This document shows, piece by piece, positions 8,206-9,672 of a stretch of 22,489 nt of DNA. Made by a program: the position numbers and the translations under genes. The notes under the pieces were generated by a model that made no database searches, was not told the DNA's origin, and saw nothing but the letters and a program-made list of their open reading frames with translations. The number at the start of each line of letters is the position of its first letter. Positions within the stretch are counted from its first letter, which is position 1. Origin of the DNA: a virus; IMG/VR virus record IMGVR_UViG_3300005824_000058, positions 1 to 22,489 of that record; one strand, given 5' to 3'.

Positions 8206-9348
8206 ATGACTACCCTTATGCAATGCTCCGAACAGTGGATGAAGCGCCCGACCGACGAGCGTTTCCTGTCGCTTACCGAAATGGCCGCGAAGAAGCAGGC
8301 GATCCGCGACTCTTCTGTCGCCAACGTGGTCCCGAACCGTGCGCTGAAGTTCGCACCGCACCCCGGCAACCCTGACAAGGGCCTGACCATCGAGGGCTCT
8401 GACGGTGCCTACTACGATCCGACCAACTATGCTTTCGGCCAGATCGCCTCGCTCGCTGGTGCCCCTGCCGGATACCTCCGCTCGCTGCACCCCTCGCTGG
8501 TGGCCGACAACCTGAACTACGGCATGCGCTTCAACCGCGACATCCAAGAGGTTGGCGTCCTGCGCACTAAGGTCACTTCTGAACTGGTGACAGACTACAC
8601 TGGCGGCGACTTCCACGAGCACGTTGAACTCCGCGCTGCAACCGGCCCGAACTATGGCCGCGTCTGGGATGTGGACATCATCAACATGCTTCAGAAACGC
8701 TTCGGTGATGGCCGCACTGGCGACTTCCGGGTTCCGGGGGAATTTGGCCGGGACGTTCCGATCACCCGCGACAACACCACGCTCTACGCTTCGGATCGTG
8801 ACATGTTCGTCTTCCTCTGCGACGAGAACAACCGCGTCGAGATGAAGGATCGCCGGGACGGCAAAGGAGGCTCCCTCGCCCGTGGGTTCTTCGTCTGGAA
8901 CTCTGAGGTCGGCAGCCAGTCCCTCGGCGCGGCGTTCTTCCTCTTCGATTACGTCTGCATGAACCGGATCGTCTGGGGTGTGCAGGACTTCAAAGAGATT
9001 CGCCTGCGTCACTCTTCCGGTGCGCCCGAACGGTGGATGGACGGTGTGGTTCCGGTTCTCGAAGAGTATGCCCACAGCGCAGCCGCACCCATCGAAGAGA
9101 CGATCCGTATCGCGCAGGAGAAGAAGATCGACAACGATCTGGCTGACTTCTTCAAGAAGCGGAACTTCTCTGTGGCTGAGCGCAGGGTGGCTGAGGAAGC
9201 CCACATGCGCGAAGAGGGTCGTCCCATCGAGACTCTGTGGGACGCCGTTACAGGCGTGACCGCAGCGGCCAAGACCATCCGCAACCAAGACGACCGGGTT
9301 GCACTGGAACGCAAGGGCGGCAGCCTGCTTGACCTCGCGACTTTCTGA
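8206..9348 (+). CDS. DUF932 phage/plasmid-like protein
   Basis: 380 residues. The segment ARGFFVWNSEVGSQSLG, then FLFDYVCMNRIVWG (about 225-260), is the signature of the DUF932 family (phage/plasmid-like proteins), whose members usually have 'NSEVG' followed by a 'CxN' motif. The family is common on plasmids and phages, and its biochemical role is not established as far as I know. It is the first gene after promoter P3 and is set apart from the following genes by a hairpin and a tRNA-like element, so it is probably a well-expressed single-gene unit. AAGGA (8190-8194) precedes the start by 11 bases, a little far. A minus-strand open frame of 437 codons covers the same region and is a GC-driven shadow. 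Confidence 0.88.
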   Translation: MTTLMQCSEQWMKRPTDERFLSLTEMAAKKQAIRDSSVANVVPNRALKFAPHPGNPDKGLTIEGSDGAYYDPTNYAFGQIASLAGAPAGYLRSLHPSLVADNLNYGMRFNRDIQEVGVLRTKVTSELVTDYTGGDFHEHVELRAATGPNYGRVWDVDIINMLQKRFGDGRTGDFRVPGEFGRDVPITRDNTTLYASDRDMFVFLCDENNRVEMKDRRDGKGGSLARGFFVWNSEVGSQSLGAAFFLFDYVCMNRIVWGVQDFKEIRLRHSSGAPERWMDGVVPVLEEYAHSAAAPIEETIRIAQEKKIDNDLADFFKKRNFSVAERRVAEEAHMREEGRPIETLWDAVTGVTAAAKTIRNQDDRVALERKGGSLLDLATF

Positions 9349-9354
9349 AACCTT

Positions 9355-9383
9355 GGACGCCGAGTTGGATAGGCTTGGCGTCC
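9355..9383 (+). terminator. 10-bp hairpin directly after DUF932
   Basis: GGACGCCGAG (9355-9364) pairs with CTTGGCGTCC (9374-9383) with one G-T wobble; the loop is TTGGATAGG. It starts seven bases after the DUF932 stop and is followed by TTCCTCC, a weak pyrimidine tract. Its position fits a terminator, or a processing signal ahead of the tRNA-like element. Confidence 0.5.
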
Positions 9384-9390
9384 TTCCTCC

Positions 9391-9445
9391 GGGGGGCCGA
9401 GGGTATCGGTTGGCTACAGGGGTTCGACTCCCCTGCCTTCCACCA
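9391..9445 (+). other. tRNA-like acceptor/T-arm element ending in CCA
   Basis: The T-arm is canonical: AGGGG (9418-9422), loop TTCGACT, CCCCT (9430-9434). Directly after it comes an acceptor 3' strand GCCTTCC (9435-9441), discriminator A and encoded CCA (9443-9445). A matching 5' strand GGGGGGC lies at 9391-9397, pairing all seven positions with G-U wobbles at 3-70 and 4-69. Only 20 bases separate the acceptor from the T-arm, room for one short stem (CGA/TCG) but not for both D and anticodon arms. It could be a tRNA mimic, a degraded tRNA, or the 3' end of a host tRNA carried as an attachment-site core. No integrase is in the window to support the last option. Confidence 0.55.
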
Positions 9446-9495
9446 CCTTTCAAGCCCTCTTATCCCGGCGAAGAGCCGCCATTCTAGGAGACCAT

Positions 9496-9672
9496 ATGAC
9501 TTTCGAGATATTCGCCATGGCTCTTATCGTGCTTCCCACCGCGCTCTACCTGTTCGTCCTCGGGATTGCTCTGGTCCTTTTGCGGGTCGTCGTATGGTGC
9601 CGAAAATCACATAAGCGGACTGACGACGACTTCCAGCGCCGGTTCTTTGATTGGCGGGAGGGGTGCAAATGA
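9496..9672 (+). CDS. Small membrane protein
   Basis: 58 residues. TAGGAG precedes the ATG. Residues about 5-34 are hydrophobic (MALIVLPTALYLFVLGIALV), followed by a basic, polar tail (WCRKSHKRTDDDFQRRFFDW), so one transmembrane helix with the C terminus probably in the cytoplasm. Its stop overlaps the next start as ATGA. Function unknown; small phage membrane proteins of this kind often act on host membranes or exclude other phages. Confidence 0.65.
   Translation: MTFEIFAMALIVLPTALYLFVLGIALVLLRVVVWCRKSHKRTDDDFQRRFFDWREGCK

Follow-up and report, generated by a model that had tools for sequence, protein, structure and literature searches.

What is a complete acceptor/T-arm minihelix, ending in an encoded CCA, doing between two genes of a phage? 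The window, by which we mean the whole stretch of 22,489 bases analysed, is a single IMG/VR phage record (IMGVR_UViG_3300005824_000058), and the 55-nt element at 9391-9445 on its plus strand lies in a 147-nt intergenic gap (9349-9495) between a DUF932 gene and a 58-aa ORF. The features of the locus are as follows.

8206-9348, plus strand: upstream gene for a DUF932 protein of 380 aa (PF06067, phrog_1362)
9355-9383, plus strand: strong hairpin (fold z −4.5; none of 200 shuffles folds as well)
9391-9397, plus strand: acceptor 5' strand GGGGGGC, positions 1-7, 7/7 paired with 9435-9441
9397-9409, plus strand: small D-arm-like hairpin CCGA-GGGTA-TCGG, placed by covariance model R1 (below) in register with CCGTC-GGGA-GACGG of two phage contigs, L049 and L152
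9410-9417, plus strand: linker TTGGCTAC, 8 nt, equal in length to CTGATCAG of L049/L152
9418-9434, plus strand: T-arm AGGGG-TTCGACT-CCCCT, 5 bp with consensus loop
9435-9445, plus strand: as read from the sequence, acceptor 3' strand GCCTTCC (9435-9441), discriminator A73 (9442) and encoded CCA (9443-9445)
9496-9672, plus strand: small downstream ORF read from the sequence, 58 aa, preceded by AGGAG

The element thus has the layout GGGGGGC-CGAGGGTATCGGTTGGCTAC-AGGGG-TTCGACT-CCCCT-GCCTTCC-A-CCA, with the T-stem formed by 9418-9422 and 9430-9434 around the loop at 9423-9429. The gap from acceptor to T-stem is only 20 nt, with no anticodon arm, and neither a tag reading frame nor pseudoknots are present in the element. 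On re-examination the coordinates and the anatomy given in the preliminary description (7-bp acceptor, T-arm, A73, CCA and 20-nt gap) proved right, as did the alanine identity set that it read from the sequence (G1-C72, G2-C71, G3-U70 and A73). It had passed over two details. The acceptor contains five Watson-Crick pairs and a second wobble, G4-U69, besides G3-U70, and the gap holds the hairpin at 9397-9409, which has 3 bp, or 4 bp when C9397, shared with acceptor position 7, leaves the acceptor. The GGG of the hairpin loop could form a D-loop/T-loop contact. With both strands scanned, no other T-arm plus CCA occurs in the window. No promoter-like site was found for it. The hairpin at 9355-9383, which has counterparts in the matching place in the related contigs L003 and L004, is probably a structure at the 3' end of the DUF932 transcript.

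Such an arrangement is rarely produced by chance. A 5-bp T-arm with consensus loop and NCCA is expected 0.013 times per dinucleotide-shuffled window; given the T-arm, a 7/7 acceptor mate 12-36 nt upstream is found at 0.6% (plus strand) or 1.1% (minus strand) of positions, and the same mate with a 4-bp hairpin inside the gap at 0.2-0.35%. The product, with the internal hairpin counted, comes to roughly 3e-5 to 5e-5 structures of this kind per window, and T-arm plus acceptor was seen in 0 of 300 shuffled windows. We conclude that 9391-9445 is a real, non-random tRNA-like element. Its folding energy is unremarkable against shuffles (z −0.14), because G-runs fold easily.

We then asked which known RNA the element resembles. 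ARAGORN predicted no tRNA and no tmRNA, and an Rfam search at gathering thresholds reported no family. In a permissive Infernal-type search of 201 nt, as proposed in the preliminary description, the best family was tmRNA (RF00023), the bacterial RNA that frees stuck ribosomes, at 21 bits (E 5e-7), which is weak and far below the gathering score of 47, although no other member of its clan scores higher there. The alignment covers the model from its first position to its last, apart from 326 nt missing in the middle, suggesting a tRNA-like domain (TLD) without the mRNA-like domain. The tmRNA D-loop motif GG..UUCGAC is not reproduced; GG.UAUCG aligns only partly, and a hairpin occupies that place instead. 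A deleted tRNA-Ala was considered and rejected on the lack of any D-arm or anticodon match and the negative ARAGORN result.

The hairpin architecture is shared with two high-GC phage contigs, L049 and L152, which carry GGGGGG(C/T)-T-CCGTC-GGGA-GACGG-CTGATCAG-CGGGG-TTCGACT-CCCCG-(G/A)CCCTCC-ACCA, with a compensatory change between them at acceptor position 7. A covariance model built from these two alone (R1) recovered the window element at 41.5 bits (rough E 1e-8); the match spans all 58 positions and brings the hairpin and 8-nt linker of the element into register. The next match in the window scored 10.3 bits, ordinary DNA reached at most about 16 bits, and tRNAs and tmRNA pieces at 16 control loci reached a maximum of 30.4 bits. 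Across 794 bacterial genomes, searched with stricter filters, the top tRNA scored 35.8 bits and the top match overall, one full tmRNA, 37.1 bits. The comparison elements were gathered with a T-arm pattern modelled on the window element, so part of the likeness (GGGG, T-loop, YTCCACCA and in part G3-U70) is due to selection; the hairpin and the linker lie outside the search pattern. In a CM-guided alignment of the elements, both partners have changed in 11 of 17 pairs, and 0 of 500 shuffles reach the observed covariation score; this covariation leans towards the model since the alignment was fitted to it. Our conclusions rest on this CM-based alignment (A6); the MAFFT alignments A1 and A2 misplaced the 5' G-run.

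These results also bear on whether the element is a non-functional relic, that is, a decaying piece of tRNA or tmRNA acquired by the phage. Its absence from the close relatives S-ESS1, L003 and L004, the two acceptor wobbles and the low tmRNA score would all fit such decay. Set against this, all 12 of the 12 acceptor and T-arm stem pairs and the CCA are intact, and the layout is common to unrelated phages, so that we consider a relic unlikely. The degraded tRNA put forward in the preliminary description is likewise disfavoured by the intact 7-bp acceptor and the covariance match to independent elements.

The main objection to a TLD reading comes from predicted folds in context. Using ViennaRNA, the T-arm kept a pair probability of 0.98 in all flanked contexts tested, while that of the acceptor helix fell to near zero once flanks were added. 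A competing stem, 9391-9404 with 9444-9460, was favoured by 7.7 kcal/mol with 10-nt flanks and by 14.6 kcal/mol with 40-nt flanks. The site may accordingly encode a different structured RNA, a 3'-UTR or leader of the DUF932 region built on this longer stem, in which the T-arm likeness would be partly accidental. Minimum-energy folding in context does yield the longer stem (−34.1 kcal/mol, z −1.97; 8 of 200 shuffles fold as well), and other long-stem elements lie in the same gap of L003 (z −3.2) and S-ESS1, so this gap may host structured RNAs in general. However, the S-ESS1 element is no better than shuffles (z 0.11), G-runs pair readily with pyrimidine-rich flanks, and this explanation sits poorly with the end-to-end R1 match, far above ordinary DNA, and with the failure of shuffled windows to yield T-arm plus acceptor. 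We regard it as rather unlikely. Most comparison elements hold the TLD fold within 0-2.4 kcal/mol, the exception being L174 with 40-nt flanks, and the ViennaRNA model leaves out tertiary contacts, proteins and processing. Among relatives of the window phage, long-stem structures without T-arm or CCA were noted in the post-DUF932 gap at L003 4286-4386 and L002 4267-4349. The element is absent from 56 RNR-related contigs. Next after S-ESS1, phages of Roseobacter, Loktanella, Dinoroseobacter and Ruegeria hold the nearest named RNR homologues, which makes the Rhodobacterales setting assumed in the preliminary description plausible.

Phage attachment sites often hold tRNA or tmRNA ends, and the preliminary description had offered an attP core, with a host tRNA 3' end, as one explanation. 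It had suggested matching the 3' end to host tRNA genes. The sequence from T-loop to CCA has no match in 84,980 genomes, and a looser pattern without CCA gave 18 matches in genomes, 0 of them inside a tRNA or tmRNA gene. No integrase was found among the window ORFs searched (the window is a fragment) or in S-ESS1, L003, L004, L164, L049 and L036. Moreover, an attP would not need the 5' acceptor strand. With no host-identical 3' end in these genomes and no integrase in the ORFs searched, we reject an attP core for the window and consider its probability close to negligible. Likely attP sites do exist elsewhere, at L017 11980-12031 and L150 886-937, where a tRNA-like 3' end directly precedes an integrase-like ORF (judged by eye).

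A pattern scan of viral contigs (GGGG, short gap, T-arm, YTCCACCA, followed by pairing filters) yielded further elements, 54-64 nt long, at places where no ordinary tRNA lies; matches to a 7-bp-mate pattern that were ordinary tRNAs (e.g. L045 and L047) were dropped on ARAGORN evidence. The clearest, L095 3502-3565, is a 64-nt tmRNA from which the entire message part is absent, scoring 67.3 bits with the Rfam tmRNA model, above gathering. L174 also passes the gathering score (47.9 bits over a 72-nt form), and L036, L058 and L127 score about 43 bits. L164 scores 44.2 bits with R1; its phrog_6368 protein, with relatives in Schitoviridae of Ruegeria, Dinoroseobacter and Sulfitobacter, marks this contig as that of an N4-like roseophage. 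Longer versions are found in named phages. Microbacterium phages Armstrong (L195, about 2446-2539) and Franklin22 (L196, 2444-2534; 41.1 bits with the tmRNA model) carry unannotated TLD-like versions of about 90 nt in a tRNA/HNH end cluster. Ruegeria phage DSS3phi2 carries an unannotated 113-nt version near its right genome end (FJ591093.1 74434-74546; L307 5017-5129), GGGGATG...CATCTCCACCA, which combines the acceptor GGGGATG/CATCTCC and ACCA with an additional internal hairpin resembling a T-arm (31.4 bits, E 3.8e-9, tmRNA model). Phages V12, V14, V17 and V21 have this version too; it did not turn up in the matching regions of EE36phi1, V13 and vBDshPR2C. The Armstrong and Franklin22 forms score low with R1 and DSS3phi2 gives no R1 match; these longer forms are thus TLD-like by the tmRNA model and not members of the hairpin subtype. 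If real, such elements escape annotation because ARAGORN does not detect them and some score under the Rfam threshold. No exact copy of the window element was found in viral contigs, and BLAST of a 60-mer gave no match covering 80%, only short matches, many of them to T-arms of ordinary tRNAs or tmRNAs. Two more short-gap tRNA-like elements were noted at L191 5486-5542 and L328 2763-2823, the latter without an alanine-type acceptor. A T-arm resembling that of DSS3phi2 occurs in Aeromonas phages (PV190393.1 41279-41313, MK318083.1 64105-64138 and OP820700.1 69828-69861), annotated as tRNA-OTHER, tRNA-TERM or tRNA-Pyl.

Since similar mini-RNAs recur unannotated in several unrelated phages, the analysis suggests a TLD-only RNA acting as a decoy against ribosome rescue. 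Specifically, we propose that the site encodes a 55-nt TLD-type tmRNA-like RNA, an alanylatable decoy that damps trans-translation, a proposal to which we give an even chance. The RNA would be co-transcribed with the DUF932 region, after which RNase P would trim it, its CCA being already encoded, and it could be charged by AlaRS through the G3-U70, A73 and CCA seen in its sequence. It would then compete with host tmRNA for SmpB, EF-Tu and AlaRS, or alternatively enter stalled ribosomes and take the nascent chain without supplying a resume codon. The net effect, judging from the reported inhibition of tmRNA by TLD-only RNA, would be to damp trans-translation during infection. Among the three options of the preliminary description, a charged RNA or one sequestering CCA-dependent factors fits best; the link to tmRNA, the best Rfam family for an architecture that recurs in phages, had escaped it.

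A functional tRNA-like RNA might also work outside trans-translation, as a charged minihelix feeding alanine into some other reaction, or as a decoy that occupies RNase P or a defence nuclease cutting tRNAs. The sequence does combine the alanine identity set with an RNase P-type substrate shape, and similar elements adjoin tRNA genes in Armstrong and Franklin22. Against this, no suitable partner gene was seen in the window and the tmRNA model is the best match, and we think such a role very unlikely. Returning to the trans-translation decoy, a broader interpretation is that unrelated phages have repeatedly made or acquired TLD-only mimics against ribosome rescue, with the window, L049/L152 and L164 forming a distinct hairpin subtype; we put this forward tentatively, as a possibility. 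If the elements are real, TLD-only RNAs occur across phages of Rhodobacterales, Microbacterium and other hosts, which would point to trans-translation being targeted by phages via RNA mimicry. DSS3phi2 on Ruegeria pomeroyi DSS-3 offers a culture system holding the 113-nt relative, in which direct testing is possible.

How does the window RNA compare with known systems? With RF00023 tmRNA it shares the acceptor with G3-U70, the T-arm, A73 and CCA, whereas it is without pseudoknots, tag or a clear GG-UUCGAC motif. With the permuted two-piece tmRNA (RF04321) it has in common an acceptor piece with T-arm and CCA. A permuted tmRNA was rejected for the window, where neither a coding piece with a second acceptor 5' strand nor space for such a piece exists downstream. 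Genuine phage-encoded permuted tmRNAs are found in L089 (3928-4204) and L019 and were left out of the element set; an extra GGGGATG lies upstream of the acceptor piece and is able to base-pair with the 3' strand of the acceptor. The acceptor/T minihelix of tRNA-Ala is a laboratory construct with the AlaRS identity set; the window RNA has this set too, but is genome-encoded and adds a hairpin and a linker. CDS-less tmRNAs of about 65 bp, reported to be closer to Ochrophyta plastid tmRNAs, are described from Mallomonadaceae plastids (PMC11915505); they are alike in size class and in having no tag frame, and differ in being organellar. The closest precedent is Mycobacterium phage DS6A, which has a CDS-less (TLD-only) tmRNA; TLD-like RNA has been reported to inhibit tmRNA, perhaps through SmpB titration (PMC4131195, PMC11915505). 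The tmRNA database paper of 2025 puts the number of standard CDS-less sequences at 9 and names DS6A (PMC11915505). The TLD-only kind is therefore already known, and DS6A-like inhibition of trans-translation would, by analogy, be the best-supported mechanism for the window RNA. In the literature searched, one phage, DS6A, is known with a TLD-only tmRNA, and within that literature the hairpin subtype and the wider phage spread look new. Compared by description, the DS6A RNA is, like that of the window, phage-encoded, with little beyond the tRNA-like domain and no tag frame; the two differ in that the D region of the window RNA is closed into a small hairpin and its score falls far short of the tmRNA threshold.
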